Source: Chloranthus sessilifolius
Taxonomy: Eukaryota > Streptophyta > Magnoliopsida > Chloranthales > Chloranthaceae
Direction: 5' to 3'
DNA: 64,000 nucleotides
Assembly (NCBI GenBank): GCA_021018995.1
Contig: CM037591.1
Coordinates: forward strand, 6,206,001 to 6,270,000
In this document: piece after piece, positions 15,099 to 51,948 of the stretch
Layout of the letters: each line of letters begins with the position of its first letter
Position numbering within the stretch: position 1 is the first letter of the stretch
The notes under the pieces: model-generated
The model's database searches: none
Told to the model about the DNA's origin: nothing
What the model saw: the letters and a program-made list of their open reading frames with translations, nothing else
Translations under genes and position numbers: made by a program

Positions 15099-15145
15099 AG
15101 CCTTAAACTTAAAAAGGGCACCTTCTTTTTTGACTTAGTATTAAC

Positions 15146-15360
15146 CAAGGTGTCCAAATTGGCATCGGTTATCGCTTCATGGAGGACCGATACAACTCGA
15201 TCATTTTTTTATTCTTTTTTGTTAATAAAAACTTCAAATTTGGGCCCAAACCGTTACATATCGGCCAATACCCGATTCGGGCCCGTATCGCCTGATAAGT
15301 ATCACGATACCGGGCCAGGATACCAATAGGTATTGGTATGGGCCGATTTTTTATACCTTG
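15146..15360. mobile_element. hAT-like TATCGG element, perfect 8-bp TSD
   Basis: Starts CAAGGTGTCCAAATTGG and ends TTATACCTTG. GTATTAAC directly flanks both sides (15138-15145 and 15361-15368). The interior is a palindromic run of TATCGG/CCGATA words. Confidence 0.85.
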
Positions 15361-15656
15361 GTATTAACTTGTTAGAGTCATCAATAAGGCACATGTGGCA
15401 TCGATCTGAGCTGTCCATTGGCAAGTCATCGTACGGTCAGTACTCATAATATCAATACACTCATAAGAGGATCCTGACCTTCTGATCAAGAAACTGCACG
15501 TGGACGGTCGGATGAAAAATCAATCGATCAGCACAATTTTGTAGCATGACTCCCAAGTCCCAAACCACTGTTGACATGTCAGCTAGCATTTCAGATTGAT
15601 GTCATATGGATAATGTAGGTGACCTGAGCACCTAACAACAGCTTCTTCTATTTTAG

Positions 15657-16036
15657 GGTACCCCATTATTTGCACTCCATGAACCTGTTATCGCACCTTA
15701 CATACCCTAGCCGAAATTTGCATTGATTGCTTTCAATCAGATGATGGAGATCATCTTTCATTTCAACTTCTACACTCCATATCTTACGATCATGAGCGTA
15801 CCATCAGACGATTAATTTTTTATACCACACGTTATACATTCTAAAAAGTGACCCGAAAACCATAAAATGGAATCAAAAACTGAACTAGTTGACAGTATGC
15901 CCATGATCTAAAGATCCATTTTATGGGAAGAGTAGGATGAACAAATGAGGTCTACCTTCTGATTCAAAGCAGCCAATACATTTTGGTTGGGAATATTGGG
16001 TGAGATTGCAGTCTCATGGAGTGCAAATAATGGAAC
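15657..16036. mobile_element. Hairpin MITE copy
   Basis: Tips GTACCCCATTATTTGCACTC and the inverse GAGTGCAAATAATGGAAC, with the family interior and near-complete self-complementarity. No ORF. Confidence 0.72.
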
Positions 16037-16046
16037 TTTTTGTGGG

Positions 16047-16400
16047 TATGGGTATTTGCAACCAAAGATTCGGTGTGTGCAACCGATGATTGCACCATTA
16101 GCATCGTTGACGGCCTTGAATTAGACGATGCAGATCATTTTTCATTCCACTCTTTCGTACAATAGATCTTGAGATCATGGCCCACCTATCAGACGATCAG
16201 ATGTTGATTCCAAATAACACACATCCCAAAACTGATCATGATCATAGTGTACCATTATAAGGGATCACAGTCACTTCTAAGAATGCGTGCCACATGGGAT
16301 CAACATTTGACGATTGGGACAAAATACGATCTCCATCATCTCATTCAAGGAAGTCAACAATGTTAACGGTGAAATCATTAATTGCGGAAACCGAAGTGCG
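16047..16400. mobile_element. Hairpin MITE copy, diverged tips
   Basis: Carries GATCTTGAGATCATGGCCCA and CACATGGGATCAACATTTGA family words. The tips are only loosely inverse (GGTATTTGCAACC against GGAAACCGAAG-type words). Confidence 0.5.
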
Positions 16401-16423
16401 ATGATCAATCAAGATTGAAACTA

Positions 16424-17593
16424 GGGAAATTTACCTGATCAACCCTGTCAGATACACCTTTTACGTCAGAGGCCCTATATTTTCACCTTTACCCAAATCG
16501 ACCAGCTGGGAGCCTAGCCGACCCTAAGGATAGCAAAAAGTCTAAATTACCCCCTTTCTTTAACGCACAAAAACATCATCTTCTTCCACATGTAAATCTG
16601 CTACAGTTTCTAAAAGTCAGAGGTGGCGAAGGTGACGGTGTCAGATCTACTCCAATCTACTATTTGGATCGACCCGATACACCTTTTTCATCAGAGACTG
16701 TAGCAGATTAGAATGAGGAAGAAGAGGATACACTTATATAATTTAAAATTTTAAATATTTGCATTTTTCTATATTTACGCGATGTGAAACGAAATCTATG
16801 CCGTCTGATTTGAAGGCCACAATATAAAATCGATGGTCAAAGATAGATATGAAAAAAAGGCGATATCGACTCTGTACATAGTCGATATCGACTCTGTACA
16901 CAGTCGGTACCGACCATTTTAAGAGTCGTTAACAACTGTTTACAGAGTCGCCATCGATTCTTTACACAGTCACCATCGATTGTATAAAAAAAAAATCATA
17001 GTTGATGGCGACTCTGTATAGAGTCGCTATCGATTTTATAAAAATTAAAAATAATAATAAATAATAAAAAAAAATTTATACAATCGATGGTGACTCTATA
17101 TAGAGTCGATGGCGACTCTGTACAAAGTCGCCACCGATTTTATAAAAAATAATTATTATTATTATTTTTTTTTATGCAGTCGATGGCGAGTCTGTACAGA
17201 GTCGATGACGACTGTGTACAGAGTCGATAACGACTCTTAAAATGGTCAGCGTCGATTGTGTTAAGAGTCGATATCGATTGTTAAATTTTTATTAATTTTT
17301 TTTAAAGAGGCGATATCGCCTTTTTTCGTATCTATTTTTGGCGTCATCTATTTTGTTATATGGTCTTCAAATCAGACGGTATAGATTTGGTTTCACATTG
17401 CGTAAATATAAAAAAATGTAAATATTTACAATTTTAAATCATATAGAACGAAAAAAAGTATAAGGGATATTCCGGACTTTTTGTGCTAGCTGAAAATAGC
17501 TTGGCTAAAAGCTGATTGATTTAGATAAAGGTAAAAATACAGGACCTCTAACGTAAAAAGTGTATCTAACCGGGTCGATCAGCTAAATTTCCC
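16424..17593. mobile_element. Mutator-like element with perfect 9-bp TSD
   Basis: Ends GGGAAATTTACCTGATC and inverse GATCAGCTAAATTTCCC. Inverted similarity extends well over 150 bp (CCTTTACCCAAATCGA, AAAAAGTC). TTGAAACTA flanks both sides (16415-16423 and 17594-17602), the 9-bp duplication expected of Mutator-like transposition. There is no transposase. The middle (about 16860-17320) is an array of degenerate GAGTCGATATCGACTC-type units. Confidence 0.9.
16858..17325. repeat. Array of GAGTCG/CGACTC palindromic units
   Basis: Some 15-20 degenerate copies of ACAGAGTCG(A/G)TATCGACTCTGT-like words, separated by short A/T tracts, arranged roughly symmetrically about 17060 inside the Mutator-like element. 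Confidence 0.8.
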
Positions 17594-17859
17594 TTGAAAC
17601 TATTACAACGACGTCACGACGCATGGCAACGGTCAGCTTCAACCAAAGGGCACCTAATACTTTATTTAATTTGAAAAATAGGCTGTGAGACTTATAAAAA
17701 CAATATATAAATAATAAAGTGGTCTCCCATAGTATATTTGCAAATCCATGATCCTTATGTCACTATGAAAACTAAGCTCATTGGAAAATGGGTCCCTTTA
17801 TTTTCAACCACTGGTTCTTTCTTCTCAACCCGAATTTATCGTGCATTTACCTTTGACTG

Positions 17860-18180
17860 CTTGTAATACGACTAATATTTCAGTTTTTGCTCCAATCTTA
17901 GATATGATGAATCTTGAGATCATAGGCCCACCATCCGAAAGGTCGTATTTTGATTTCACGTGAAACAAATCTTGAAAGTAATTCAAGAACCACGATTGAT
18001 ATATATATATCATGATCATATTCACTTTTTTGAATGATAGATTCATGATCTCAAGATCTAATATGTGGAACATCGGGTTGAAAAATAATCTCTATCATCA
18101 GATTCAAAGTAGTCAACAGTTAAAGCAAGTGAATCTCGAGTTGAATAGGAAGACTGTTGGCTTGTAAATACAGGTACCCT
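17860..18180. mobile_element. Hairpin MITE copy straddling the start of duplication copy A
   Basis: GAATCTTGAGATCATAGGCCC, then CTCAAGATCTAATATGTGG and GTAAATACAGGTACCC. The counterpart in copy B is at 20836-21112. Confidence 0.6.
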
Positions 18181-19383
18181 TGGAAATTTCTAACCAAGTT
18201 TTATAACCTTTGACCCAAATTTCCCTGCCCACACCCTAGAAAAATGAATATGCACACCACTTTTATAATATGAAAAGCAAATAGTAAGGTGATATTTGTC
18301 ATAATCTGATTAAATTTATTGTTTATTGTTATTGACCTAGATTTCATCGACCATTTTCGATTTCGTCGAAATTTAAGAAATTTATTTAATTGCAGGTCTA
18401 GTCGAGCACACATCTTTTACCGTTTAGGTCAAGTCAGGTTGGGTCGGACATATGCCCTTTATCTATTTGACAGTCAAAATTATGGCCTGACTCAACCTAA
18501 CCTAACCCATTCACAGCCCTACCACGAGACCCGAGCGAGAAATTGCTACCTACTTGATTTTCTTTGCACTATAAATCACAAACTCCAACGGACCCATTCA
18601 CTCTCAAGAGTAAAGAGTAAACGGGTCAATCTCCTTATGCTAAAATGGTCAACCTTGAGAAGTGTACGGTTATTTATAAACAAGCACATTGGTGCAAGGA
18701 CAAGTTTGACCACTTTACCATAAGAATATTGAACTGTTCACACTTGTCCTCTACCAACTCATACATATAACATGAGTCAGAACCCTAGAAATATGTGAAA
18801 GTCAGCTTTTATCAGTGACTATAGTCAACTTGTACATTAGATAGAGATGGGCATCACCTCTTATGGATAGGGTTTGGCCTTAGATAAATGGATATGAACC
18901 ATCTAATTTGAGCTTTAATATCAGGCATTAAAACTGAATATAACTATTGATATTAAAGTTTATAGATCAAATGATTTAAATCTCCCCCAAACATCACCCA
19001 CAGCTTTAAACATTGATTTGATGGTATATGATCATTTAAACCCGTAGGTAAGACGATTCCTCTTAGGTAAGATAGTGAGTACCTTCATAAAATAAATAAA
19101 TTATGATAACAAATATAAGAAGAGGCAACTTAACTAATTAAAACTCATTGAGAATTAATTATATGAACTGTTTAGGGTTTAAAAAATGACAGTAACCAAC
19201 TTCAATTGTTTGATGGATCACTAAAAAATAGGGTCATATGACATTAGTCAGACTTAATTAGATGTGACTGATATTTAACACTATGCTCAAAACTATTGGT
19301 TTCAACATGAAAAAGATTGTAATCTCATTGCCACAGGAAAAGGAGAAATTTCTCAGTGCACAAAAGGATTCCATTATTAATAT

Positions 19384-19929
19384 GGGTGTGGGTATTCTCA
19401 CCCATTTTCGGAGTAAGGATCATACAATTTTTCACAATCGAAAATTATTGATTGTTTTATGTTCTAATCTTTCCCACAATAGATCTTTAGATCATGACAC
19501 ATGTATCAAACAATCAGATGTTTAATCCACATCCACTACAAAAAATAAGACTATTAGCGGGAGAGCTAAAAACTGCTACTAGTACCAAAGAAATTGTTGT
19601 TAATAGTCTTCATAGCCTTTAAGAGTATTTTTTTTTAATATCGGCAGTTTTTTGCAGCAAAAATTGTCGATAATAATCTTATTTTTTATAGTGATAGCAC
19701 ACGTCTCTAAAAGTGAAAGTCAACTCTTATGCCCATGATCTAAGTCACTTTTGGGGATGTGTGCTATTTGAGATCAACATCTGAAAGGCCGCACCATGAT
19801 CTTAAGATCAATCGTGGAGAAGATTGTAAGAAAAAACAATTTCCATTGTCCGAATCAAATCAGACAATGATTTTCATCCATGAAAAATTGTGGTCCTTAC
19901 CCCAAAAACGGGTTAGAATAGCCCTACCC
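19384..19929. mobile_element. Hairpin MITE containing a CACTA insertion
   Basis: Left GGGTGTGGGTATTCTCACCC, then GAGTAAGGATCATACA; the right end is the inverse (TGTGGTCCTTACC, then ATAGCCCTACCC). It is interrupted at 19534-19693 by a CACTA element. Confidence 0.7.
19534..19693. mobile_element. Miniature CACTA element
   Basis: Begins CACTACAAAAAATAAGACTA and ends TAATCTTATTTTTTATAGTG, the CACTA-superfamily terminal signature. 160 bp. Flanks ATC/ATA give an imperfect 3-bp duplication, and the surrounding MITE continues across the insertion (CCACAT, then AGCACACGTC). Confidence 0.85.
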
Positions 19930-20057
19930 CAAGGATCAAAATTTCGGATTTCGTTTTAACTTCGGTGGGGACCGAAACCGAAATTTTGGTCAGAAATCTT
20001 CAAACCCATACAAAAATCCCAAAATTTTGGTCATTTAGGCCGAGATTTTGATCCTTG
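19930..20057. mobile_element. hAT-like TTTCGG element, perfect 8-bp TSD
   Basis: CAAGGATCAAAATTTCGG start, GATTTTGATCCTTG end. CCCTACCC flanks both sides (19922-19929 and 20058-20065), so it inserted at the right tip of the preceding MITE. 128 bp. Confidence 0.9.

Positions 20058-22402: not shown

Positions 22403-22403
<1 letters not shown>

Positions 22404-22488
<85 letters not shown>
22404..22488. repeat. (TA)n microsatellite, about 85 bp
   Basis: Uninterrupted TA dinucleotides. Ile-Tyr repeat frames on both strands here are artefacts of the repeat. Confidence 0.97.
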
Positions 22489-22491
<3 letters not shown>

Positions 22492-25231: not shown

Positions 25232-25519
25232 CATAGTGACAAATTTAGAGCGAACTGGGGGTTAAACAAAATTTTTCGAGAAAATTTCGGTACCTTTCGA
25301 TAATTTTGGTATTTTTCGGTATTTTTGATGTTTTTCAGTAAATTTTGATATTTTTGGATAAATTTTTTTTATATATTAAAAAAAATTATTTTATATATAT
25401 ATATTATTTTTAATCTCCGAAACTTTCCTGAAATTTTTTCGAAAGGTATAAAAAATAATCCGAAATGTACCGAAAGGACCCCCACCGAAAAATTCCCAAA
25501 AACGAAATTTGTCACTATG
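25232..25519. mobile_element. hAT-like MITE, perfect 8-bp TSD
   Basis: CATAGTGACAAATTT start and AAATTTGTCACTATG end. CTTGTAGG flanks both sides (25224-25231 and 25520-25527). The interior reiterates TTTTCGGTA. A relative lies at 40586-41021. Confidence 0.88.
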
Positions 25520-25544: not shown

Positions 25545-25583
<39 letters not shown>

Positions 25584-26090: not shown

Positions 26091-27179
26091 CGTGTGACGG
26101 CGTCTTTACTTTGTATGTTAGCTAGAAGGCATGGGGAGCTTAGAGCTGGATTTTTAGCTAGCAGGAAGGCGGGCGGACCTTAGAGCTAGCTGAGTAGCAT
26201 GATTACTCCCTCGAAAGATTGCGGTAATGAGGACGTTGACCTTATAGAGTCGGAGAGGATGTCACGGTGTTATTAATTTAGCGGGTGAGCGCAGAGGCAT
26301 GTGACCTTGCAACGCGTGCATGTGCCCGTTATATACGATGCGACGGTGACTCGAGATATGCGAGGATCTAGTGTGGCGACTAAACACACGAGGGGCATGA
26401 AATGCGGTGCTCCGCGTAGGGGCACGCGATATGGTGCCAAGAGAGTATGTGACATCTTGGTGCCGTAAGGCACAGGATGTGGTGCCAAGAGGGCACACGA
26501 CATCCTGGTGCCTTGAGCACTTGATGCGATGACATGAGGGCATGTGACATAGTGTCAATTAGACACGAGACATGGTCGCAACACGGATGTGACATGGTGA
26601 TATGCGGAGTTCGCGACACAGTGCCATGAGGGCACATGACTTGAGGCCATGAGGGCCTCGCGACGTGGTCGCGATGTGGACGCAACGCGAATGCGTCACG
26701 GTCACATGTGACGCTGATGCGTGACCTCACAGGGCGTGTTGGTGTGGGGGATGACACTGTGTGCAACGGGAGGAGGTCTGTATGCTTTGGTGGTATGTCA
26801 AATCAATATGTTTGGGTTCTCCTACCAGTTGACACAAGTTGGTGTTTAGACTATACTTGGGGGAAGAGAGTTGTGGAGTTATTCTCCTACACATGGGGCC
26901 CTGCGTTGTTGGACGAGCACATGGGTTTCCTAGGTCAGGGGTGGGCCTAGGACATCACTGCAGTGATGCCATGTGTCACCCGATGTGAGGTTGTCATATG
27001 GCCCCGAGCTACGCATCGCGGTGCATATGGGCCGGCAACTTCACGAGGGCACTCAAGGGCTACGTGGGATACAGTGGTGCAAGCTAGAGGACTGTCTGAG
27101 CGTAACGTCTTTGGTCATGTGGGCCGATGGCGAGGCTTGGATTAGCATGAGGGCGCATACTTGCCGGGCAAGGAACTAC
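26091..27179 (+). mobile_element. Inverted, truncated 3' end and LTR of the 27-32 kb retrotransposon
   Basis: 26091-26259 is the inverse of internal sequence 28304-28471 and ends in a purine tract (GTCGGAGAGGA). The LTR starts at 26260 (TGTCACGGTG) and runs to about 27179, where it breaks at the first base of the opposite-facing element. Roughly 330 bp of this LTR are missing. It carries the same TATATA-like word (CGTTATATACGATGC) as its relatives. Confidence 0.75.
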
Positions 27180-28303
27180 TGTCACCAAGTTACTCTTTTC
27201 GACATGCACTCGCGTGCGACACCTAACTTTCCAAGTTAGGTCAGCCTATCTCAAATACCAGTTGTCACGAGGCACAACTTGATACTGGCTATCACACTCA
27301 TACAACGCCTCATTGTCGCGTATAGCGAGGCCAATTTATCCAACCAAACTCTGATACCACCCGTTTAAAGGACATGAACTCTCGATCACGGTTGCCTTCT
27401 CTCGAGATCAACCATGTCGACGCATCGTGTCTCCTCGCGACACTCATGTACGCACTTTAGTGTCACTTGGCTTGCCCAGCTTCACCCTGTGCACTGCACT
27501 AATTCCTTGCCCGTGACAGTAGCATGCAGCTCCTCATGCTGAACCAAGCTTGCCATCGTGTGTGGCCCACGCAACCAGCACATGTTTACACCAGACCCTC
27601 AGCTAGCATGCACCACTGTGTCCCCCGTAGCCCTTGAGTGCCCTTGTGAAGTTTTCGACCCATATGCATTGCGACGCATAGCTCAGGGCCATATGACAAT
27701 CTCACCTCGGGTGACACATGACATCGCCAAAGCGACGCCTTAGGCCCACCCCTGACCTAGGAAATTGATGCACTCGTCCAGCAACGTAGGGCCCCATGTG
27801 TAGGAGAATAGCTCCACAGCTCCCTTCCCTCAAGTATGGTCTAAACACCAACTTGTGTCAACCGACAGAAGAACCTCAAACGTCTTGGTTTGGCATACAA
27901 CCATGGCACACAGACCTTCACCCATGGCATATAGTGTCATCCTCCACACCACCATGCCCTATGAGGTCACGCATTAGTGTCACATGCGACCGTGTCGCAT
28001 TCGCATCGCGTTCACGTCGCGAGGTCCTCATGGCCTCAAGTCACGTGCCCTCATGGCACTGTGTCACGAACTCCTTATGTCACCATGTCGCGACTATGTC
28101 TCGTGTCTGCCTGGCACTATGTCGTGCGCCTTCATGGCATCACATCACGTGCTCAAGGCACCAAGATATCGCGTGCCCTCTTGTCACCACACTAGATCCT
28201 CGCGTATTTCGAGTCACTGTCGCATCGTATATAAGGGGCACATGCAAGTGTCGCAAGGCCATGTGCCTCTGCGCTCATGCGCTAAAATAATAGCATCATG
28301 ACA
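27180..28303 (-). repeat. 3' LTR
   Basis: 1124 bp, aligned end to end with 30550-31723 with many substitutions and small indels. Includes the TATATA-like promoter word near 28234 (read from the minus strand). Confidence 0.78.
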
Positions 28304-28316
28304 TCCTCTCTGACTC

Positions 28317-30534
28317 TATAAGGTCAACGTCTTTGTTGATACAATATCTCGAGGGAGTAATTATGCCACTTAGCTAGCTCTAAGGTCCGCCCGCCTTCCT
28401 GCTAGCTAAAAATCTACCTCTAAGGCCCCCATGCCTTCTCCCTAACATACAAAGTAAAGACGTCGTCACATCCTTCCCTACTCTATAAGGTCAACGTCCT
28501 TGTTGATGTAATATTTCAAGGGAATGACTACGCCAATTCCACCAATCTGGCAGTGTCAATGCCTATACTGACACCAAGACCTGCATCAGTACCTCGACTT
28601 TTGTCTTGACCCCATGCAGAGTCTCTATCATTATGCTCTGCATTGAGCATTAGTAACTACAACTCGCTCTAGTACCTCGACAATATGTGTCTTCACCCAA
28701 GAGTTCGCCTAACAAGTTTTGCTTTTGAAACGTCTTAGTACCTCGGTCATGCTTTCAAAACTTTGTTTCTCAAGCTTACCTTCGACTCAACCTATCTACA
28801 AGGTCCTGCCACCTGCCTGCTAGTTGATCTATGTGCATCTCAATGCACCAGGGGCATGACCACGTCATATCCCCCCCCACTCAATGCGTCAACGTCCTCG
28901 TCAACACTCGAACTCATACGTTAGTTCCTTGACACAATTTCGATCTTCACCAAGACATTCTCACACCAACCCAAGGACAAACAACGCTCATCAAACTGTA
29001 TTTGTACTAGTACCTTAACTACTATCCTTCGTCTTCACCCAGGCACAATCATAATAGCTCATCGCAACGAGCTAAATGCATCCTCTATAGCGTAATAGAT
29101 CTTCGCCTCATGCCACAACATAGTGCCTTGATCATCTTTTTTTGTGTCTTCACCCCATGTAGTGTTCTAGCCAACTTAGTCTGATCAATATTTCACCTAG
29201 GTATCTTTATATACCAGTTCCTCATATAACCAGAAGCAACCCGATTATTAGCATCATTCATGTTACCACCTAAATCGACTGTCAAAACAAAGCAACTCGT
29301 GCCTTTGATGTTCACATCACTGGCTCCAAGTCCACGCAACTGTTTGCTCATCGCAACTCTATGGTTTCTCAACATTTTGTTTTCACCCATGAGCCTGCCA
29401 ACGAGCGACCATGCTCATTCCAACGAAGAACCATGCTTCTCACTACTATAGCTCGCAATGCTGCCCATGTCTTTCGACTGTAGCAACCAACAAAAATCAA
29501 TTTTCTCGGACCATTAGACTTGATCACCACTACAAGCCCTCAATTGTCCTGCAGTGCTCTAGTACCTCAATATCTCGATGTCTTCGCCCAAGAGCCTGCC
29601 ACGAGCATAATGCTCAATCATCGAAGCTCCATGCTTCTCACACTATGATACCTCGACCTATGTCTTCACCCATAGTGTGACTCGAGTTGCCTCCTACAAC
29701 CCGACTTACAACTTAATTCGTTGCCTTCGTGTATGCTTCTAGCATCCTAATGAGTGCAATCAATACCTTCACTTTCTACCGGCTATCATGCCTTGGTACC
29801 TCGGACATTGACCTATTCACCACGAAACATACCACCTTTACCTTGAATTATTTCGCTTCAATATTCTAACCATATTGTCTCTGCCATGCTCAGGAACTAT
29901 CTTTGTCTTTAGTCCTTCTCGTAGACTAAAGATCTCAACGATCACCTGAGACTCGCATCCTCTAAAGGTACCCATCTGGCTCTCGGATTTACTTCCTCTA
30001 AAGCTGCGCTGAATCATTTGTCTAACCATCTATCTTTTACAGACATCATGCCTTGTCATTTCACAACAAAGCAACGAGCTGATCCTTACACTGTCACATA
30101 TCAACGGTCTAGACCCTCATGCCATGTACCAACAACCGATTCTGAAATCTCAGCTTCCTCATAAAGTGAGAATGGAGCATCATCCTTGCTCCATGTCATC
30201 CCTGACAACGGTGCTCTAAGCATCAATGTGACCCAACATCTCTTGTCGGAACGTCACTAGCGCTCATCTCTCTCGGACCTTCCCGCTACCTCAATGTGTG
30301 GCTCTTATGGCCAACAAGCATTGAGCAACATCCATTTTTTGTAATAGCATAATCCAACAATAACTTTTCTCTGCGGGCAACCAAGCTCTTAAACTTACTG
30401 TAACAGAGTGCATCCTAATTGCATCTCAATCGCAGATATGCAACTCAACTGTACACAAGTACCTCTGATTATCTCGAAATTAGAGCACATCTCATCGCTC
30501 TGGCATGCCAACATAGTCTCATTTGAAACGATCT
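28317..30534 (-). other. Non-coding interior of the LTR element with a recurring motif
   Basis: No recognisable protein. The word (A)GTACCTCGAC, usually followed within 10-20 bases by TGTCTTCACCC, recurs near 28593, 28671, 28737, 29015, 29131, 29566, 29650 and 29795, so the interior seems built from an old degenerate repeat. A local repeat of CTCTATAAGGTCAACGTC occurs near 28315 and 28484. Confidence 0.6.
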
Positions 30535-30549
30535 GACTCTAATACTAAC

Positions 30550-31723
30550 TATCACCGAGTTACTCTTTTCGACGTGCAGTTGCGTGCGGCACCTAACTTT
30601 CCAAGTTAGGTCAGCTTATCTCAGATACCAGTTGTCACGAGGCACAGCCTGACACTGACTATCACACTCGTGCAACACCTCACTGTCACGTACAACAAGG
30701 CCAACTTATCCAACCATCACTCTGATACCACTCGTCTAAAGGACAGGAACTCTAGATCATGGTTGCCTTCTCTCGAGGCCAACCATATTGACGCATAGTG
30801 TCTCCTCGCGACACTCATGCACTCACCTCAGTGCCACTTGGCCTGCCCAGCTTCACCCTGTGCACTGAACTAGTTTCTCGCCCATGACAGTAGCATGTAG
30901 CTCCTCATGTTAAACCAAGTCTGTCATCGTGTGTGGTCCACACGACCAGCAGACGTCCGCATCATTCCCTCAACTAGCGTGCACCACTGTGTCCCACATA
31001 GCCCTTGAGTGCCTTCGTGAAGTTGTCGACCCATATGCACCGCCACGCGTAGCTCGGAGCCATATGACAATCTCACCTCGGGTGACATATAGCATCGTCG
31101 CAGTGACGTCTAGGCCCACCCCTGAACTAGGAAACCCATGCGCTCATCCAACAATGCAGGGCCCCATGTGTAGGAGAAGAGCTTCACAGCTCCCTTCCCT
31201 CAAGTATGGTCTAAACACCAACTTGTGTCAACCGGTAGGAGAACCTCAAACGAATTGATTTGACATACCACCATGGCACACAGACCTCCACCCATGACCC
31301 ATAGTGCCATCCTTCACACCAACACGCCCTGTGAGGTCGCGCATCAGTGTCACATGCGACTGTGTTGCATTCTTGTCGTGTCCACGTCATGAGGCCCTCA
31401 TAGCCTCATGGCACTATGTCGCGAACCCTACATGCCACTATGTCGCGTCCATGTCGCGACTGTGTCTCGTGTCTATTTGGCATATATCGCGTGCCCTTAT
31501 GACATCGCATCACGTACCCAAGGCACCAGGATGTCTCGTGCCCTCTTGACACCACATCGCGTGCCCCTATGAAAAGCACCACATTTCATGCCCCTTGTGT
31601 CTAGTCACCACACTAGATCATGAGTATCTCGAGTCACTAACGCATCGTATAGAAGAGGCACATACACGCGTCGCAAAGTCACATGCCTCTGCTCTTACAC
31701 ACCAATGTAATAACGCCGTGACA
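30550..31723 (-). repeat. 5' LTR
   Basis: 1174 bp. Ends GTGACA on the plus strand. Partner of 27180-28303. Divergence between the two LTRs is visibly large, so the insertion is old. Confidence 0.78.
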
Positions 31724-31816: not shown

Positions 31817-32297
31817 CATGGTTCAAAATTTCGGCCGAAACGCATCAATTTTCGTGGGGCCCGAAACGATAACTCCATATTTTCGCCAAAATTACTGAAG
31901 TAGCAAATTATTGGTCGATAATTTGCCCGAAACTGAAATTTCGACCGATATTTTGCTTCTTCGAAGAAAAAAAAAATCCGCTTGGGCCTCAAGATCAATG
32001 ATCAAAATTTCGGTTTTTGTTTCAATTTCGGAGTGGACAGAAACCGAAATTTTGGACTGAAATTTCGGCGAAAATTTCAACCCCATACATTTGATGACCA
32101 AAATTTCAGTCCTAAATTATCGTTTCGGTGGGGACCGAAATCGATAGTTTCGGCTGAAATTTCAGTCATTTCTGCCGGAATTTTGATCCTTGCTCAAGAT
32201 TTCAATCAAAATTTCAATCAAAATTTCAAATTTTCGATTAAAATTATGGCTTCGGGCAAGATTGAAATCGAAACGAAAACCAAAATTTTGATCCTTG
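31817..32297. mobile_element. hAT-like TTTCGG element with a second one nested in it
   Basis: Outer element from CATGGTTCAAAATTTCGG to AAAATTTTGATCCTTG. The flanks are GTGCCAGC (31809-31816) and GTGTCAGC (32298-32305), 7 of 8 matching. The interior is split by the 31996-32192 element. Confidence 0.82.
31996..32192. mobile_element. Nested hAT-like TTTCGG element, perfect 8-bp TSD
   Basis: CAATGATCAAAATTTCGG start, AATTTTGATCCTTG end, flanked by CTCAAGAT on both sides (31988-31995 and 32193-32200). 197 bp. Confidence 0.9.
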
Positions 32298-33546: not shown

Positions 33547-33737
33547 CAAGGTATCAAAATCGGTATTGGTTTGTCGATGACTGAATGGTATCGCGGTTGA
33601 TACCGATAGATATTAGCCTTTTTAAAAAGAAAATTCACATCTCGGCCGATACAAGCCCATATCGGCCGATATGATATCCGACACCCAAATTGAGATATTG
33701 ATGCATATATAAGTATCGGCCGATTTTTAATACCTTA
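33547..33737. mobile_element. hAT-like TATCGG element
   Basis: CAAGGTATCAAAATCGG start, TTTTTAATACCTTA end. Flanks ATTCTCAT and ATTCTCAA (33539-33546 and 33738-33745), 7 of 8 matching. 191 bp. Confidence 0.82.
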
Positions 33738-35385: not shown

Positions 35386-35606
35386 CAAGGTATTAAAACT
35401 CGGCCAATACATATCGGTGTTTCGTTAAATTGATACGTACCGATTTTCAACTCAATTTTTGGTATCGGCATCGGCCGATATGAAACCCGTATCAGCCAAT
35501 ACCTCCCTATTTTACTTTTATTTTATTTTATTTTTAATACTCACTGAGTCAAATCAGCCGATTTGTATTGGGCCTCCCTGATACCGGTGCCCGAGTTGAC
35601 ACCTTG
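35386..35606. mobile_element. hAT-like TATCGG element
   Basis: CAAGGTATTAAAACTCGG start, GTTGACACCTTG end. Flanks GCTCCGAT and CCTCCGAC, 6 of 8 matching. 221 bp. Confidence 0.72.
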
Positions 35607-36661: not shown

Positions 36662-36859
36662 CAAGGATCAAAGTTTCGGTCGGAATGACCAAAATTTTAG
36701 CCGAAATTATCGGTTTTGGTCCCCACCAAAATGATAATATGGGACTGAAATTTCAGTCATTTTTGTATGGAATTCAAAATTTCGGATATCGGCCAAAATT
36801 TCGGATTTCGATTTCGGTCATGCCCGAAACTAAAATTTAACTCGAAATTTTGATCCTTG
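36662..36859. mobile_element. hAT-like TTTCGG element
   Basis: CAAGGATCAAAGTTTCGG start, AAATTTTGATCCTTG end. Flanks GGTTTGAC and GATTTGAC (36654-36661 and 36860-36867), 7 of 8 matching. 198 bp. Confidence 0.85.
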
Positions 36860-37357: not shown

Positions 37358-37546
37358 CAAGGTATTAAAATCGATATTGATCTCGGGTATCAGTTTGTCC
37401 GGGCCGATATATATCGGTCAATATTGAAAATAAAAGAAAGAAAAAACTAAAATAAAACAGAGTGTCTCGGTTGAAACCGAGATGTATCGGCAATACTGAT
37501 ACGAGATACCGATACGTATCAGTACCGACCGATTTTTGATACCTTG
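37358..37546. mobile_element. hAT-like TATCGG element, perfect 8-bp TSD
   Basis: CAAGGTATTAAAATCG start, TTTTTGATACCTTG end. ATATTAAC flanks both sides (37350-37357 and 37547-37554). 189 bp. Confidence 0.9.
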
Positions 37547-38105: not shown

Positions 38106-38375
38106 CAATGATCGAAATATCGCTTTTTCGATACGTATCGTCCAGCCCCAAAATCGATACATATCGGTTTCGGACGATACTGTCCGATTTTTTGCCAAAA
38201 TAAATAAATAAATAAAACATGAAACCGATAATTTGAACGATACATTGAACGATACAGACGATACATTGAACGATAATTTGACTGTTTTTTCAGGGGTGCG
38301 ATAAATACCCAAATTATCGTATCGTTCATGTCCCAAACCGATATGTATCGGTATCGAACGATATTTTGATCCATG
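38106..38375. mobile_element. hAT-like element with GATC tips and TATCG core, perfect 8-bp TSD
   Basis: CAATGATCGAAATATCG start, ATATTTTGATCCATG end. GTTGAAGG flanks both sides (38098-38105 and 38376-38383). It combines tips like the TTTCGG group with an interior of the TATCGG group. Confidence 0.88.
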
Positions 38376-40585: not shown

Positions 40586-41021
40586 TATAGCAAGGATCAA
40601 AATATCCGGTAAAATTTCTGCTGAAAACCAAAAATTTGGACTGAAATTTTGGTCCAAATTATCGTTTCGGTGGGAATTGAAATCGATAATTTAGGCCAAA
40701 ATTTCAGTCATTTTAGCCGAAATTTTGATCCTTGGATTATAGTGATAAATTTCTCTGAATTTATTCTGAAACAGAGTTAGAGTCGTAGACGAAACTTTCA
40801 ACCAAATTTTGGTGATTTCTCTAAAATAACAGAGTTTTATTTATTTTGATGAAATTAATGAAATTTTATCAAAATTAATGAAAATTTCTAATTTCAGCCA
40901 TTTTAAAATAATAAGTAAGATTTTTTATGAATATTAAATCATAAAAATAAAAAAACAAAATTTGTACTCCCCAAAATTTTCCTTTACCGAAATATTAACA
41001 AAAGTGAAGTTTATCACTATG
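40586..41021. mobile_element. hAT-like MITE invaded at its tip by a CAAGG element
   Basis: Right end TTTATCACTATG; left tip TATAG-(insertion)-TGATAAATTT. Flanks CTCATGAT (40578-40585) and CTTATGAT (41022-41029), 7 of 8 matching. Relative of the element at 25232-25519. Confidence 0.75.
40591..40734. mobile_element. hAT-like TTTCGG element, perfect 8-bp TSD
   Basis: CAAGGATCAAAATATCCGG start, AATTTTGATCCTTG end. GATTATAG flanks both sides (40583-40590 and 40735-40742). It sits 5 bp inside the 40586-41021 element. 144 bp. Confidence 0.9.
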
Positions 41022-42800: not shown

Positions 42801-42809
42801 TTTTTTTTT

Positions 42810-43042: not shown

Positions 43043-43078
<36 letters not shown>

Positions 43079-43080: not shown

Positions 43081-44930
43081 AAGTCGATTTAATGAGGGTT
43101 TGGAATCCGCCTTTTTCGAAGAGGGTAGAGGAGCAGCAGCAGTAGCTAAATAGAGAGGCAAGGGATCTCTTTCTAAGATTTCGCTGTGAAGGTGAGCTGC
43201 TTTATTTTGTTGATTTTATTTATTTGTTTGTTTTATTGTAGATCAGTCATTTTAGATTATTTGAAGGGATTTAAGGTGGATTTCTGTGTTCATTTTTTTT
43301 TTTCGGAATTTTTTTAGCTTTTATTTTTAGAGTCGTGGTGAAATTTTGTAGAGTTTGGATTTTTGTTGATTATTTATTTTTAGAGGAGTCATTTCAGCTT
43401 GTTTTAGAGAGATTGAAGGTGGATTTGTGTTTTTTTTCACTTAATCTTCTGTTTTTTTTTGTGCATTTTTTTCGAACTTTTGTTCAGGTTTTGCAGTAGT
43501 GATATTTTGCAAATCTGAATTTTTTATTTGATTATTACTGCTATTTTTTTTATTTTTTAAAATGAGTAATTTCAGTTGTTTTAAAGAGATTCAAGGTGGA
43601 TTTGTAGTTTCACTTTGTTTTTTGTTTTTAGTTTTGTGCATTTTTTCGAGCTAGAGCTATTGTTCAGGTTTTTGCAGTTATTTTTTGTAGGTTCAAATCT
43701 GAAATTTCTTGTGCTTATTCGTTGGTTTTGATGGATCTGTAAGTTTTTTCTGCATGTTCTGTGCGGATACGAAGATGATCTCGTTGTTGACTTTGTTTTT
43801 AGGTTTTATTTGGATTCGAGGTGGAAAATTTTCGCTTGGCTTTAGTTTTTTTTTCTTGTGTTTCTTCATTTCTTCTTTGAATATGCTGTGAAAAGTTAAT
43901 GTTTAGCTTTGCATTTGGGTTTCTAGTCTTCAAATTCACGATTTTCGACATTTGCATCACATTTTTTCCAGAATTCATGCCACTTTTGGTGATTTTTATA
44001 TATTTCTGGAGAAAAATTTCTTGGTCTAATTTGTTTACGAGGTTTCTTCTGTATTTTTGCAGATCTGTATTCGAGATCTCGTCTTCGTTTCCAATGAAAA
44101 ATTGAAAAACTCTTGAAGATTTAGTGTCTGAAAAAAAACCACGTTCTCATCTCTCTTATAGATCCGATCTCTAGTTTCTCGCCTCAGACGTGTTCAGATT
44201 CGAAGCTTTTGATCCAGTGAGATCCTGCTCGCAGTAGCTAGTTTTCCTGCTCTCCGATTTTACAGGTATATGCGCACGTTACGGATATTTGCTATGATGC
44301 GGTTGAAATCATCTTCTTTGAACTCGCTCAAAAACTACAGTCGGATCTGATCTTATGGTTCCTATTTCTGAGCATAGCTAGAGTCTACTTGGTGCACGTT
44401 AGATCTTTCTGGATGTTTTTCTTGTTATGAAGTCGTTTCATATTTATTTATTTATTGTTCGTTTTGCCTTCACTGCACTTTTTTTCTGAGTCTTTTTGTT
44501 GTTCTTCATATGGGAACCTGATTTTTGCAGATAAAAATTATTTCTAGTTATTTATTCATTCTCTCTTTGCAGCTATTTGCCACATTTCTGGGTTATATTT
44601 TTTGTTACTGGGAATCTGAAGTTTCCATGTGCAGCAACACCTTTAAATTTTAAGCATAGGTATGAGCTATTCTCATACACTAGCTTCAATTTTTATCTGT
44701 ATGGAGTGCTGCTTATATTATTAATTGAATTATACATTAATTTATTCCTCATTCCCAGTCTCTGATTTTGATTCTTTGGAGGTATTTGAATCATATGATA
44801 GAATTGCTTCTGTGACCTTTGAACTATGTGTAGTTTTTGTTGATTGTTTGATCTCTGTATACTGAAATTGATAGTATTTTAGAGAGCTCTTATGATCTTC
44901 GCTTGATCCGTCTATCATTTAGTGCCTCAG
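43080..44930 (+). other. 5' UTR with two probable introns
   Basis: A likely first UTR exon ends GCTGTGAAG at 43191 before GTGAGC. A second UTR exon appears to run 44063-44265 (TTTTTGCAG before it, GTATATGC after it). The last acceptor is GTGCCTCAG at 44928-44930, directly before the ATG. The intervening sequence is T-rich, as expected of plant introns. Open frames inside it are not coding. Exon limits are inferred from splice signals. Confidence 0.55.
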
Positions 44931-47900
44931 ATGTCGTTCCGTAGCATAGTCCGCGATGTAAGAGATGGATTTGGGAGCTTGTCGAGGCGGAGCTTTGAGG
45001 TCCGGTTGATGGGCCATCATCGAGGGAAGTCTCATGGAGCAGTTCACGAGTTGCATGATCAACCATTAGTGATCCAACAGAGTTGTTGGGCTAGCCTTCC
45101 TCCAGAATTGCTTCGGGATGTGGTTAAAAGGTTGGAAGCTAGTGAAAGTGTGTGGCCTTCTCGCAAGCATGTTGTTGCCTGTGCCGCTGTTTGCAGATCA
45201 TGGAGAGAAATGTGTAAAGAAATTGTCAAGAGTCCAGAGTTTTGTGGGAAGCTTACTTTCCCTGTGTCTCTGAAGCAGGTAGTTTTTTATATAATTAAAT
45301 CGTCTTTGTTATGGAGTTCTCTTGTTACTTGTTGTTAGTTCTGAAGGGTGTAAATTGGTATTGGGAATATAATGATTAAACACTCCTTTATCCAACCTTT
45401 ACAGCCAGGTCCCCGGGAGGGAACCATTCAATGTTTCATTAAGAGGGATAAATCAAATTTGACCTACCACCTTTTCTTATGCCTTAGCCCTGGTAAGATT
45501 CTTTTCTACAATTGGTTGAATTCTTGAATTTATTGCAGTTACACGAATGCCTTGCTTAGGATTACTTGTGAGATTTGATTTCCAAGTTGACTTTTGTTTT
45601 TTAGTGTGTATGACATCGTGCTGATTTCATGGTGGGATTTATTGGCATTGAGCACCACTACTGGTGACTTAGTACAACAGCCAACCATTGTCGAAGAATA
45701 GTTGACTTTTGCTTTTAAAATTAGTAAATGGAAGAAATATAAATACTATATTAGAAAAGCCTTATTCATATGCTAGACTTTTATCAGATGAATGAACTAT
45801 CAGTTGATCTTTGAATAATTGACTTACAATATTATAGACAAGGTTCAAAGTATCAACCGATACCAACATGCATTAGTATCTGGCCTGGCTGATATCAATA
45901 CCTGCCTAGTATCGATCGATGCCTATTTGTAGAAGTAGGTATCTGAAGCTGCTGATTCATATTGAGAATCTGAATTCTTTTTCCTCTCACTGTCTCTCTC
46001 TGGATCCGCCTTGTATCAGCTGGCCAATACATAGCGGCATCGCTTGATATGGATGCCAACACCAAGATTTAAAACCTTGATTATAGTAGTTAAATGAAGT
46101 GTTCATCAGAGAACCTGTTTGAGGCATATTACTACGGATTGTATCTCTGAAACATCGATAGTTGTTGATCATCAAGGACTCAATATATAATGGAGTAATT
46201 AACTATAATTCAACATAGATTATCATAAAAATTTTAAAGAATTTGCCATGTTGATGGTCGTCAACCATCAACGATTAATAGGAAAAAATTCATTATGTTG
46301 GTATGTAAATGGCAATATAAACACTGTTGTTGAGTTAGTGTAATTTGTCATGGTCATTTATGTTGGACATGTGGAAAATATGTGTGGACCTATTGTTGAG
46401 GCATATTGTCAATCATTGTTCCTCTAAAGATTGATGGTCACCAAACATGAATGATTCGGCAATATAATGGAGTAATTGAATTGTCAATATAGATGATCAT
46501 CCAATGCCAACCGAATTTTATAAAAATATCAACCAAGTTTATAATGCTGATGGTCACCAAGCATCCAGCGAATAATAAAAATTCTACCCCCTTGATAATT
46601 GTATGTCAATATAGACACCTGGTATTGTTGGTTGAGTAGTATACTTTGTTTCAGGTCATCTGTATTGTACATGTGAAAAACATGCTCATGGATCTAAACC
46701 TTCCACATGGCTGATCATCCCTTGGTTGGGCACAGCCAAAGTTCAAGCCAATCAAATAATCTGATCATCTGAGCGAGATTATTTTCTGCACGTTAAGAAT
46801 GTGGACCATTGCCTGTAGGCCTTTTCAGTTTCTGTTTTATTTTTCAAAATCATCCATTTAGCTAGATTTGAGTGTTGTTTCCCAACCAGGGGATGGACTT
46901 CCATGTGGATGGTCAAATTTCATGAAAAAGCTTGGCATGTCTATATTTTATTAGGTGCTCACAGGTGGTGATCCTCTATTCCATTGCTTCAGTAGAATTG
47001 CATACGCCACTGTCTCATGATTTAATATTTTTGGGTGATATTGCAACACCCGAGCTGTATTTCTATTTGAGGTTGGCACTTAAGATGTCATATTATTGGT
47101 GGCTAGCGAGATGGGATATCGCTATCTTGATCAGTTCCAAAAAATACAACTGTCTAGTGACATCTCTGGACGTCTTGCTTGTTTTGGCTAGCAAGCCATA
47201 AAATACTTTTAGATTCCCTTTATTTGGTTACACCACCTAAGATCAGCTTCGAATTTTGGCAGAGGTTTACCTAATATACAGACTTTCTAAAAATGGATTC
47301 TAGCAGGTCATTAAGTTTTTAGATTCCGGTTATTTGGTTAGACCACCCTAAGTTCACTTCGTATCTTAGGTGACAGTCTGAGCCTAATATACGTTTTTTC
47401 CAAAAATGGATTATGAGTAGGTTGGGATATGGTTCTAGGTTGGAGTTTTTTGCGTAATGTTTGGATTGGTAGGGAGCTCCTTTTTCAATGAGTTCTTCGC
47501 TTTTATACTTTGTGGTGAATAACATAATTCTTGTGAAAGATTGTGTTAAAATTTGGGTGGGAAATTTTTCTGGCGCCCTCCATCTATAAGGATTGGAAGA
47601 TGAGATGGTAGGAGTCAATTGTACCAATGTTGAGTAAACATAAGGATGTGTATGTTCTCTTATCTAAGCTCTGGCCCCTTAATAGAATGAGAGGGAGAGT
47701 TATGTGGTGTCTTCCTTTACATAGAGGATTTTTGTATCATCATTGAGCACACTTGAAGTGTACCTTGTTATATTTCTTCCTACTGCAATGGATGGAGGAA
47801 ATAGAGGCAACTGTTACCTGGGTTCTTAATCATCAAATGCCCTCATTTTTTTAGGTTTGTTCCTTTGTTTCCTCAGTGTGTATCAGATCATAACAGAAGA

Positions 47901-50900
47901 GATCAGAGATCTAATGCTTGATTACTTTATGCTTACGGAATGAAGAAACAAAAGAGTACTTATCAGGAAAGAGTCATGAGCGTAGACATTTCTGTAGTTA
48001 AGGTCAGGAATGCGATAATTTCAAGGTTTTGGCTTACAAAAGAATAGTGTGTTCAGACAGATGACTTGGATAGCGATTGGATGCCAGTTCATAAAGACTT
48101 TGGGTTGTGCACATTGAGGATGACAAGTGGTCACCTTGTCAAGTCAGGGTTCTCAAAATAAATTTGATGGAAGTGCAACTAGAAATCTGGATACTGGGGC
48201 GGGGTGTTTGTGGGATGGTTTTATTAGTTATTACAAATGATTTAGGGAAGAGTCCTATTACAAATGATAAGGAGGGGTCGTGCTTACTATCTCCAGTTCA
48301 ATTAGAGTGGATATCTCTTGATTGGGAGAAATTCGTAGATTTTTTCATTGTCCCAGTTTATTGAAAATTGAAATGATGCCAAAGCTACCATCAAAAGGTT
48401 GATGTGGTAGAGAATCCCTTGAATCCTCAAAAGATCTGAGCAGCAATTACGTAGCGATAAATCTCTGTACACATTAAGGCTTAGAAGAAACAAAGTTTCA
48501 ATATATGAATTCGTAAAACAAGACTTACTCTAAAAATTCACTACGTGCCCTATATAGGTATGGGCTTACCAAGATCAATGCATAATTAAATATAAGCAAT
48601 TTCTAGGAGCCTTTTCATATTCTAATAAATCTAAAGAATTTCCTTTATATTCTCTAGGCAACCTTTAGTCTTTCAAAAAGTCCTTTGGTTTTGCTAGGCC
48701 ATTTTTTATTTTGTCCCATGGATGTGGTTTCCAATGCATCCTTGAGCTTCCTCTGATACCATCCACCTTTCTTTTTTCTTCCATTTTTTCCTCTGTAATT
48801 TTGGGATTTCCAATCACGTCACAAACTGGTATGTGTTGTGAAACCTGCTGCATCAAAGGTGGAAGGTGACCTTGAATGCTACTCGATGGTTAAATCAGGT
48901 GATAAAAAACTGAAATATAAGATACTTCCTGCTTTCCGAATATTCGCATATGAGGCCCCTCAAGAAGCTAACTTGGATTGGATATTGACTTAATTGCTAA
49001 GGAGAGAGTGGAGCGAGTTGGAGGGATATCTTCTGCGGTGATGCGTTTGTTCTTGGTTTCCAAGTCATTTCAACAGTTTTTCTTTTTTTTTATCCTAGTC
49101 GTTTAATCTAGGTTTAGAATGTCTGGAAATGCAAAGTCCCTACTCGACTCTAAAAAGCCAGATGATTGGAACATGGATGGAATAATGAAGTTTGGTTATC
49201 TTCAGTGACACTTCAGACGCTTACTGCCTGCACTTCATTATCTGTGCAGTAGTCTCAGTATTTTTTCTGGCTCTCTAAATCTTTCGAGTATTTTGACTCT
49301 GTTTCATGAAAATCCTAGTTGCCTTGGATGAGTTGAGAGTTAGTTATCCTTTTAGACCATTTGAAGGAGAAGTTCATCCATTTTCCATTTATGCGCTGCA
49401 TGAGATGCCTATGGGTAATGCTGCAATGGCCCTTTCTGTCATATATTGGAACTCGCCATTCCCATATTTGCATTGGCAGCCTCAGTTTTGTATTCACTGG
49501 CTCCATAGATAGATACTGTAACATTTCCATTGCTGTTTTCAAGTTTTCTTCAAATAGTTTCCCTCCATGTTTTCCTTTTGGCTCTTATTTTTGTTATTTT
49601 GGAGGTTGGTTAGCCAGACTCCAACCAGTTCAAAATGTTTACAACTTAATGTACAGCATATTACTTTCTAATGTGCCTGTTGATTTACATAAAGAGAGGA
49701 ATTATATATTGTTTATTTAAGGATTAAAAAAAAGTAAAAAATAAAAATAAACTCCTTTCATTTAGATCCATTTTAGCTAGCAAATCAGTGATTTCTTTTC
49801 CCTTCTCCAAGAGTGGCAAATTTCCTAGCAGATCTCTGATTCCTTAATGTGTATTCATCCTCAACAAGGAATGCCCATTTCCTTCTTGGTACAGTGCACT
49901 GCCAAAAGAGAATCCCTCTTCATATCCATTTAATTTCGTGATCAATAATACCTAAACTATGACATACTGGCATACTGCCTATTATCTCATCATAATTTTC
50001 AAATCTGTAATGGTGTTTGAGGCAAAACTCGACTGTTTCTCTTCAATATGGACTATTTTGCATACCAGCTGGACAAGCCACTAGCAATTCTTCATGTCTA
50101 ATTTGAACCATCCCTAAGCCAATTTCCCAAATGCATGTCCTCTCAGTCCCCATTTTTGGGTTAAGTGCGCAGCCCCATCTACCCATGATTTCTGCTTCAT
50201 TTCATACCTATGCTCCCTCATTTTAGCGGTTTAGCAGTTTTCTCAGAGCTTTGGTCGTGTCTTTGCCGGACATAAATCTTTAGAGATAAATTATGACGCC
50301 AATATTAAGTTTTGGTATTTCAACATTTTATATATTGTAGAAATCTGCGGAAGAGTTCACATAGTTTTCCAACTGAACACTGAAGTACACAATAAAGCAA
50401 CACTGAACTAGATTAACAGCGATCATTTTACCATAATGGCTAGTCTTGTGCAATGAGGCGTCTTCTATTCTTCTTTTTGAGTTAACATTATGTGATCATC
50501 AAACAAATGCTCGTAAAATGACGAGTCACTTTTACAACATAGAGCTCTGACCTGTTGTGCCACATGCGATTCAGTGGTTATCACATTGCTGACAAAAATG
50601 CCGCTTCTGTTTGCGCTCGTTACGTCAGTATGTACATTGTATAATTCCTCTATTTATCGAAGGTTCTGGTTTGATTTCATGCTTCCATTTTGCAGCTTTG
50701 CTGGTCGAGAATGGGAAATTTCTCCTCTCTGCGAAAAGAAATCGACGAACTACTTGTACGGAATATATAATCTCCATGGACGCTGACAACATTTCAAGAT
50801 CAAGCAGCACCTATATAGGAAAACTGAGGTAATGAATGGAAGTAGCAGTGTCAGTTAATACCCTTCTCCATTATGTTTGTTTCAGATATGAAACTAAGGT

Positions 50901-51948
50901 ATCTAACTTGGGATTGCTATCGGGTATCGGTCCATGGAGGACCGATATGTATCAGCCTATATGAATTTTTAAAATTTTAAAGGTGAAACAACTTTTAAAA
51001 AAATAAAAGTTCAAATTGAAGGGGTATTGGCCGATACCAAATATGACCCCGATACTGGTATCGGGGTGGTATCAGTTTTCCGGCAAAACCGATGCATATC
51101 ACTGAGACGTAACGGTATTGGCCGAGTTTTGATACCATGTATGAAACATCTCCCTAGTTCTCTCTTGAGGGCGTTTTTTGCTAGAGTTAAAGCATATAAC
51201 AGAACAGATTGCTCATATTTTCCCTTCATACAGATCCAATTTTCTCGGTACGAAATTCATAATCTACGATACTCAGCCTCCTTATAATGGTGCCGTCACT
51301 TACCCACCAGGCCGTACTAGCCGCAGATTCTACTCCAAGAAAGTCTCTCCAAAAGTCCCATCGGGGAGCTACAACATTGCTCAGGTTTCATATGAGCTTA
51401 ACGTGCTAGGCACACGTGGCCCGCGACGCATGCACTGCACCATGCACTCCATACCAGCATCCTCCCTAGATGCCGGTGGGATTGTGCCTGGCCAACCCGA
51501 GCTCCTCCCACGCTCCCTTGAGGACTCCTTCCGGAGCATCTCTTTCTCCAAATCCATTATTGACCCTATGGAGTTCAGCAGCTCGCGATTCTCAGATATA
51601 GCTGGATCTAGTATGTGCGATGGAGACGAGGAAGGCAAATGCAGGCCTTTGGTTCTGCGAAACAAAGCGCCGAGGTGGCATGAGCAATTGCAGTGCTGGT
51701 GTTTGAATTTTCGGGGACGGGTGACGGTTGCATCCGTGAAGAATTTCCAGCTGATTGCAGCCGTTCAGCCGGGTGCAGGAGCACCAACTCCAGCACAACC
51801 GACGCCGCCGGAACACGATAAGATAATTCTCCAGTTCGGCAAGGTTGGGAAAGACATGTTTACGATGGATTACAAGTATCCGTTATCGGCGTTTCAGGCA
51901 TTTGCAATCTGTTTGAGCAGCTTTGATACCAAGTTAGCTTGTGAGTAG
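44931..51948 (+). CDS. Tubby-like F-box protein, complete (427 aa, 4 coding exons)
   Basis: Plant tubby-like protein (TLP): an N-terminal F-box recruits SKP1 of an SCF ubiquitin ligase, and a C-terminal tubby domain binds plasma-membrane phosphoinositide. Exons 44931-45278, 45405-45492, 50696-50828 and 51234-51948 have GT-AG junctions and keep frame. Residues 1-50 start [20 protein letters not shown], the usual TLP leader. The F-box spans about 52-105 ([34 protein letters not shown]). The tubby domain spans about 117-427, with [10 protein letters not shown], the basic AKRNRR cluster (158-163), [20 protein letters not shown] across the last junction, [19 protein letters not shown], and the C-terminal [15 protein letters not shown]. 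Length is normal and nothing is broken. The ATG follows a splice acceptor; a GTG nine bases upstream lies in the intron. Which TLP orthologue it is cannot be told. Confidence 0.96.
45839..46079. mobile_element. hAT-like TATCGG element in intron 2
   Basis: CAAGGTTCAAAGTATC start, TTTAAAACCTTG end. Flanks ATTATAGA and ATTATAGT (45831-45838 and 46080-46087), 7 of 8 matching. 241 bp. Confidence 0.83.
46121..46690. repeat. Diverged tandem duplication, about 280 bp x 2
   Basis: GAGGCATATT opens both units (46121 and 46398). Both continue with AATATAATGGAGTAATT, TAGATTATCAT/TAGATGATCAT and GATGGTC(G/A)(T/C)CAA words. Confidence 0.75.
47206..47430. repeat. Tandem duplication, about 110 bp x 2
   Basis: TTTTAGATTCC...TTATTTGGTTA, then CCTAATATAC and CAAAAATGGATT in the same order in both units. 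Confidence 0.82.
50895..51139. mobile_element. hAT-like TATCGG element in intron 3, perfect 8-bp TSD
   Basis: TAAGGTATCTAACTTGG start, GTTTTGATACCATG end. TATGAAAC flanks both sides (50887-50894 and 51140-51147). It makes up 245 of the 405 bp of this intron (50829-51233), 94 bp before the last exon. Confidence 0.9.

Follow-up and report, generated by a model that had tools for sequence, protein, structure and literature searches.

The Ac transposase binds AAACGG hexamers that are repeated in the subterminal regions (PMC3260210), and binding to short subterminal repeats has been described for several hAT transposases: those of Ac, Tol2, Tag1 and Herves (PMC3143072). Ds1 shares little with Ac beyond the tips and a few hexamers, and Ds-l4 carries variable filler (PMC3260210). 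We analyzed a 64,000-nucleotide stretch of the Chloranthus sessilifolius genome (assembly GCA_021018995.1, contig CM037591.1, positions 6,206,001 to 6,270,000 of the forward strand; hereafter the window), in which an earlier note, made from the sequence alone, had described thirteen short palindromic elements with CAAGG-like tips and interiors built from reiterated TTTCGG or TATCGG words. The note knew of no described family behaving in this way; however, maize Ds1 and Ds-l4 have Ac tips, differing interiors and AAACGG hexamers (PMC3260210).

The thirteen elements are very probably non-autonomous, Ds-like miniature inverted-repeat transposable elements (MITEs) of the hAT kind, belonging to two main high-copy families in which the reiterated words would act as docking sites for a transposase. 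They are short (73–276 base pairs (bp)), palindromic and too short for a transposase gene, and their exact tips number in the thousands genome-wide. The original observation was correct and careful, and what it describes is a class of transposon that is abundant yet ordinary. This interpretation builds on direct observation of the tips, the 8-bp duplications, the largely collinear cores, the copy number and the pattern of decay.

All thirteen elements, referred to here by their first position, were recovered where they had been reported, twelve by a tip scan and 35386 (end 35606) by separate placement, and each carries inverted CAAGG-like tips along with flanking 8-bp repeats. These target site duplications (TSDs) are perfect in eight elements, 7/8 in four and 6/8 in one, reproducing the earlier scores. 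Summed over the elements, TSD identity was 98/104 positions, compared with 28.0 (standard deviation 4.6, maximum 46) for flanks moved outward over 2601 offset pairs, and the match was highest at the 8-bp register. When all 1024 five-base tips were scanned across the window with a TSD of 7/8 or 8/8, CAAGG gave seven hits, five of them perfect, and was outscored only by TATAT, ATATA, TTTTT and ACTCT, which are simple repeats or a single tandem array (all ACTCT hits lie within the array at 16.87–17.27 kb). A looser scan allowing one mismatch returned 13 hits for CAAGG, namely twelve of the elements and a site at 27054 within a different palindrome, but was noisier: about 90 other tips averaged 7.7 hits, and five outscored CAAGG, some via simple repeats. 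Lengths had been put at 73 to about 290 bp and were measured at 73 to 276 bp, with 31817 counted minus its nested guest; since 31996 is inserted within 31817, the latter is older. The reported self-folding was also borne out, with z scores of −3.4 to −10.8 in 13/13 elements (RNA parameters, relative to dinucleotide shuffles), compared with a mean of −1.0 and a lowest value of −2.4 for same-length pieces about 400 bp upstream, some of which overlap an adjacent element.

To place these elements in their genomic context, we searched 2,168,743,587 bases in 32 contigs, including the window. Exact copies numbered 354 for CAAGGTATTAAAATCGG (B tip) and 6169 for CAAGGATCAAAATTTCGG (A tip followed by TTTCGG), with none for the reversed controls; the latter count implies at least about 3000 A elements. 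The loci examined head the list of matches, all lie on contig C1 and do not constitute a random sample. An excess of 8-bp TSDs was evident in each set: a partner tip together with a TSD matching at 6/8 or better was found at 18/30 B loci (offset control 1.5), at 22/22 distinct A loci, 13 of them perfect (control 1.4), and at 9/15 further A loci, 7 of them perfect (control 0.2). Of the 38 B tips on contig C2 in a listing that extends over this contig but not the entire genome, 15 fall within the first 7.5 Mb, which may be a gene-rich arm. One A element used as a query had no match in a plasmid collection, Rfam returned nothing at gathering score, and viral contigs gave two exact tip matches, about the number estimated for chance, one of them (L001) without a partner tip.

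Elements of the hAT kind favor TSDs of the form nTnnnnAn and have short terminal inverted repeats (TIRs) of the C/T-A-R-N-G kind, which CAAGG fits. Among 61 elements, T occupied TSD position 2 in 40 (p = 4e-8) and A occupied position 7 in 32 (p = 3.5e-4). Counted by eye against the Ac/Ds 5' TIR C/TAGGGATGAAA (PMC3260210), the A tip CAAGGATCAAA matches at 9/11 positions and the B tip at 6/11. The 8-bp TSDs and the tip and duplication preferences thus agree, in the window and in the genomic samples, with the hAT-like character first proposed, and the assignment is well supported.

Two types can be distinguished. Type A has tips CAAGGATCAAAAT and TTTCGG words, type B has tips CAAGGTATYAAAA and TATCGG words, and tip type corresponds to core type in 12/13 elements. 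Word-built interiors had been reported, and the words are indeed concentrated in the cores, where TATCGG is enriched 51-fold and TTTCGG 19-fold relative to the rest of the window. The exception, 38106, had been described as having tips of one type and a core of the other. Its tips are A-like, but its core is mixed, with four A-class and four B-class words, so that the description of its core holds only in part; at the sub-tip junction it reads TATCGC and TATCGT, not TATCGG. Genome-wide, the A tip directly followed by TATCGG occurs in 1672 exact copies, known from counts, so mixed junctions are common and 38106 may not be a lone hybrid; in L060, the sole mixed-end element examined, the core is of type A.

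Among the 18 possible single-letter variants of either word, the two CpG transitions rank first in frequency, both in the window and in the genomic copies. In the window these are TTTTGG (14) and TTTCAG (10) for type A and TATCAG (10) and TATTGG (10) for type B, the next being TATCGT (9); in the genomic copies the two transition variants number 59 and 36 against 177 intact words in type A, and 27 and 27 against 97 in type B. The dominance of CpG transitions indicates that the words are ancestral and eroding, as would be expected of transposon DNA that is presumably methylated. Counting decayed forms, the window has four dyads of the CCGAAATTTCGG kind and four of the CCGATAnnTATCGG kind, every one inside an element, and an intact CCGATAnnTATCGG dyad is present in 9/17 genomic B copies. 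A strict hexamer periodicity was considered and rejected: spacings divisible by 6 make up 28/48 in A, yet just 10/36 in B.

We then compared cores end to end with versions in which blocks of 12 or 20 bases had been reordered, which keeps the words and breaks their order. At the 1% level, 6/15 A–A pairs in the window were collinear with 12-base blocks (6 with 20-base blocks), as were 9/15 B–B pairs (7 with 20-base blocks), compared with 0/36 A–B pairs; for pairs involving 38106 the figures were 4/12 and 0/12. The alignment of 31996 with inverted 36662 spans the full element; 40591 and 19930 represent that sequence with internal deletions. Among genomic copies, core order beat all 100 block shuffles in 128/136 pairs of B copies (n = 17) and in 154/231 pairs of A copies (n = 22), and median identity over aligned columns, with gaps optimized, was 0.86 for the A type and 0.83 for the B type.

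Every window element has collinear kin of its own type among the 31 A and 17 B genomic copies compared. For the A-type elements, the number of collinear A copies was 28/31 for 36662, 27/31 for 31996, 22/31 for 19930, 19/31 for 40591, 12/31 for 31817 (closest to L068) and just 3/31 for 34981, and all six matched 0/17 B copies. For the B-type elements, the number of collinear B copies was 17/17 for 15146 (with 1/31 A copies) and for 37358, 16/17 for 50895, 14/17 for 35386, 13/17 for 33547 and 5/17 for 45839 (with 1/31 A copies), while the mixed element 38106 was collinear with 14/31 A and 4/17 B copies. Matches across types were few. Because order is conserved within types, the cores are largely inherited and not regenerated. 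Modular swapping of ends within A was tried as an explanation and set aside: among 37 elements the arms p, q and r pair as pr in 12, pq in 4 and qq in 1, the remaining 20 have one or both arms unassigned, and q and r resemble each other on visual inspection, so that subfamilies fit better than shuffling. In three A copies (L067, L069 and L075) the 21 bases adjoining the tip seem doubled (GATCAAAATTTCGGCCGAAAT twice, with changes), which suggests a subfamily having a doubled sub-tip.

Each of the A and B families probably goes back to a founder that was short and palindromic, some subfamilies having formed since, and copies differ by internal deletion, by insertion in either orientation, by CpG decay and by local tandem duplication of word units. 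A hAT transposase acting in trans would recognize the tips and dock on the reiterated words, as the Ac transposase does on AAACGG; the element would then amount to two subterminal binding regions placed back to back and free of genes, in which arrays could gain or lose units by slippage or repair as long as enough sites persist. By analogy with Ac, the TTTCGG and TATCGG words are therefore probably transposase-binding sites. This putative role draws on an independent hAT-type MITE of 288 bp at 25232–25519, in which similar words sit behind unlike tips. Its tips CATAGTGACAAAT match at 13/13 positions, its TSD CTTGTAGG is perfect and its fold z score is about −6; it contains 11 words of the TTTCGG class and a tandem array of 19–20 bp, and its core is collinear with none of the thirteen elements. 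It is the one window element with this third type of tip, and its tip directly before TTTCGG has 102 exact genomic copies.

The strongest alternative retains the same MITE families but treats the words as functionless content of the founders, with the tips or the palindrome alone mattering for movement. Collinear cores imply inherited words, so enrichment by itself proves nothing, and certain Ds1 elements of maize are mobile with few exact hexamers or none at all (PMC3260210). On the other hand, similar arrays occur behind unlike tips, including those of 25232–25519, the unit number of the arrays keeps changing, and subterminal binding motifs have precedent among hAT elements (PMC3143072); we consider the alternative a serious one, if on balance doubtful. 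A more elaborate proposal, which strikes us as speculative and rather unlikely, is that tip and word form a two-part code. Several hAT transposases of this plant, each with its own tip, would dock on T(T/A)TCGG words, some of them arranged as dyads; mixed junctions would be natural recombinants, tandem turnover would tune or switch the transposase in use, and methylation of the CpG within the words would be an off switch.

The earlier note had favored a different process, in which the tips persist and the cores are rebuilt afresh by expansion of short motifs. Tandem Repeats Finder did detect arrays with a period of at least 6 in 25/48 genomic copies, compared with 14/480 dinucleotide shuffles. 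Their units range from 6 to 34 bp, the count pools private and inherited arrays, and it falls to 22/48 without three copies (L020, L023 and L025) whose arrays lie only in A/T-rich stretches. Strong 12-bp arrays of three to four units are present in 31817 and 38106, and the A cores occur in several arrangements. Against these stand the preserved order of cores within types in both window and genome, the many words that are CpG-decayed forms, and element-long alignments such as that of 31996 with inverted 36662. Collinear cores, which the note itself had named as evidence to the contrary, were largely what we found within each tip type. Tandem duplication of words is thus real but secondary, and of the proposed regeneration only this residual turnover survives; as a general account it is very improbable. 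A still weaker idea, that the elements come from a different superfamily (Mutator-like or foldback) and that their 8-bp duplications are incidental, gains something from a Mutator-type element with word arrays in the window (16424–17593, 9-bp duplication) but is contradicted by the peak of TSD matching at the 8-bp boundary, the T2/A7 preference and the Ac-like A tip, and we give it almost no credence.

Several observations weigh against reading the elements as Ds-like MITEs in two families with docking words. A partner tip with a TSD was not found at 12/30 B loci and 6/15 A loci. The hexamer AAACGG occurs 0 times in the 13 window elements, 0 times in 31 A copies and once in 17 B copies; the elements are therefore not Ac/Ds proper. 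The separation of types is incomplete, with 4 to 6 of 36 A–B pairs in the window reaching the 5% level, 77/231 genomic A pairs no better than shuffles, and a few B-type elements also collinear with some A copies (such as 33547 with 5/31 and 50895 with 3/31). Word binding is argued from analogy, and inherited words need no function. A transposase gene belonging to these tips was not established at the A and B loci read. Five distant A-tip pairs lacked a joint duplication (1 to 4 of 8 positions); within their stretches, 11/12 exact tips have a short partner and one has none. Among B loci, L044 shows a perfect duplication at 802 bp, L043 a doubtful 7/8 duplication at 5795 bp with no B-like end, and L042 (101–4544) contains a hAT transposase gene (DUF4371, E value 5.7e-28; hAT dimerization domain, E value 3.8e-6) flanked by B ends that lie 4444 bp from each other and carry a 6/8 duplication.

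L042 was nevertheless set aside as the autonomous B partner, being a probable case of another hAT element inserted in a B element. Its left flank alone aligns over at least 80% of 16/17 B copies and the 36 bases on its right form a B end, so that the flanks make up nearly a whole B MITE around the gene, which leads to the nested reading. The gene piece ends in CTTGGCTCCGCCCTTG, probably its own tip, which read inward from outside begins CAAGGGCGGAGCC; its left tip was not found. Since the presumed tip also begins CAAGG, the piece is a lead. Six of the 12 partnerless B loci were read over about 10 kb. The genome contains at least 150 matches to the hAT dimerization domain (150 scored of 4130 first-look candidates). 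The window itself holds a hAT-type transposase relic at 7334–7582 (DUF4371, E value 1.9e-18), apparently broken by other insertions. It may end near 9407 in CCTGCCACTG, with its left end not found, and judged by this presumed end it does not, as far as can be seen, qualify as the partner. We take 5155–5436, from its resemblance, to be a possible further transposase piece; it gave no Pfam hit.

Table 1. Window coordinates, type and target site duplications of the thirteen elements
Coordinates	Type	Length	TSD (left/right)	Remarks
15146..15360	B	215 bp	GTATTAAC on either side	
19930..20057	A	128 bp	CCCTACCC on either side	
31817..32297	A	276 bp own sequence	GTGCCAGC/GTGTCAGC	Split by the 31996–32192 element; core 12-bp tandem array
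31996..32192	A	197 bp	CTCAAGAT on either side	Nested within 31817
33547..33737	B	191 bp	ATTCTCAT/ATTCTCAA	
34981..35053	A	73 bp	GATGGTCC on either side	Strongly shortened
35386..35606	B	221 bp	GCTCCGAT/CCTCCGAC	TSD 6/8
36662..36859	A	198 bp	GGTTTGAC/GATTTGAC	Inverted relative to 31996
37358..37546	B	189 bp	ATATTAAC on either side	
38106..38375	A-like tips then TATCG, mixed core	270 bp	GTTGAAGG on either side	Tandem array, 12-bp unit TTGAACGATACA x 3.8
40591..40734	A	144 bp	GATTATAG on either side	Internal-deletion form
45839..46079	B	241 bp	ATTATAGA/ATTATAGT	Most diverged; between exons of tubby-like gene
50895..51139	B	245 bp	TATGAAAC on either side	Directly upstream of Tub-domain exon

The last two elements in Table 1 lie between the reading frames of a tubby-like F-box gene (F-box 44907–45335, Tub domain 51169–51945), presumably within introns. 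The Mutator-type element introduced above has a perfect 9-bp duplication (TTGAAACTA) and ends that are alike over about 120 bp; its interior consists of 22-bp words (CGATATCGACTCTGTACACAGT) in both orientations, and word arrays therefore extend beyond hAT elements. A further hAT-like inverted-repeat element of 477 bp, at 59527–60003, has tips CAGTGTTACCTAG and a perfect duplication GTATTTAC, with no exact TTTCGG or TATCGG words found in it. The region 26200–31700 is GC-rich, with GC skew strongly negative between 28 and 32 kb, and includes an 85% palindrome (arms 26815–27098 and 27592–27875) and a 48-bp repeat at 26421–26512.

An apparently bizarre interior thus proves to be that of a decaying yet largely collinear family. 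Abundant Ds-like MITEs allow the link between tip and docking word to be tested statistically and, should the words prove to bind transposase, the natural combinations of tip and word would be a ready-made experiment on how MITEs capture a transposase. Judged by titles and the opening lines of abstracts, no paper describing these families was found, and searches with six tip strings returned no transposon work. As far as seen from those titles and abstract openings, as distinct from repeat libraries, these are unnamed families of a known kind.

Among described systems, the thirteen elements resemble coral CMITEs (PMC2872659) in being MITEs reported for an odd interior; unlike here, the coral elements stem from a piggyBac-like source, and their families resemble one another more in the interior than in the tips. 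They resemble the subterminal arrays of Ac, Tol2, Tag1 and Herves (PMC3143072) in that short repeated motifs adjoin the tips, although binding is experimentally proven in those systems and would be expected here by likeness. By description rather than by sequence, they can be compared with BniHAT-1 and BniHAT-2 of Brassica nigra (PMC7385995), which are likewise high-copy plant hAT MITEs, with 434 and 331 copies, respectively, compared with at least about 3000 A elements in C. sessilifolius. Closest are maize Ds1 and Ds-l4 (PMC3260210), which are also non-autonomous, with Ac-like tips, an 8-bp TSD, hexamers in many copies and class-specific interiors. The Chloranthus elements differ from these in having TTTCGG or TATCGG and almost no AAACGG, in being word-dense at 73–276 bp, and in copy number, with exact tips in the thousands compared with 331 Ds1 and 486 Ds-l4 elements (PMC3260210).

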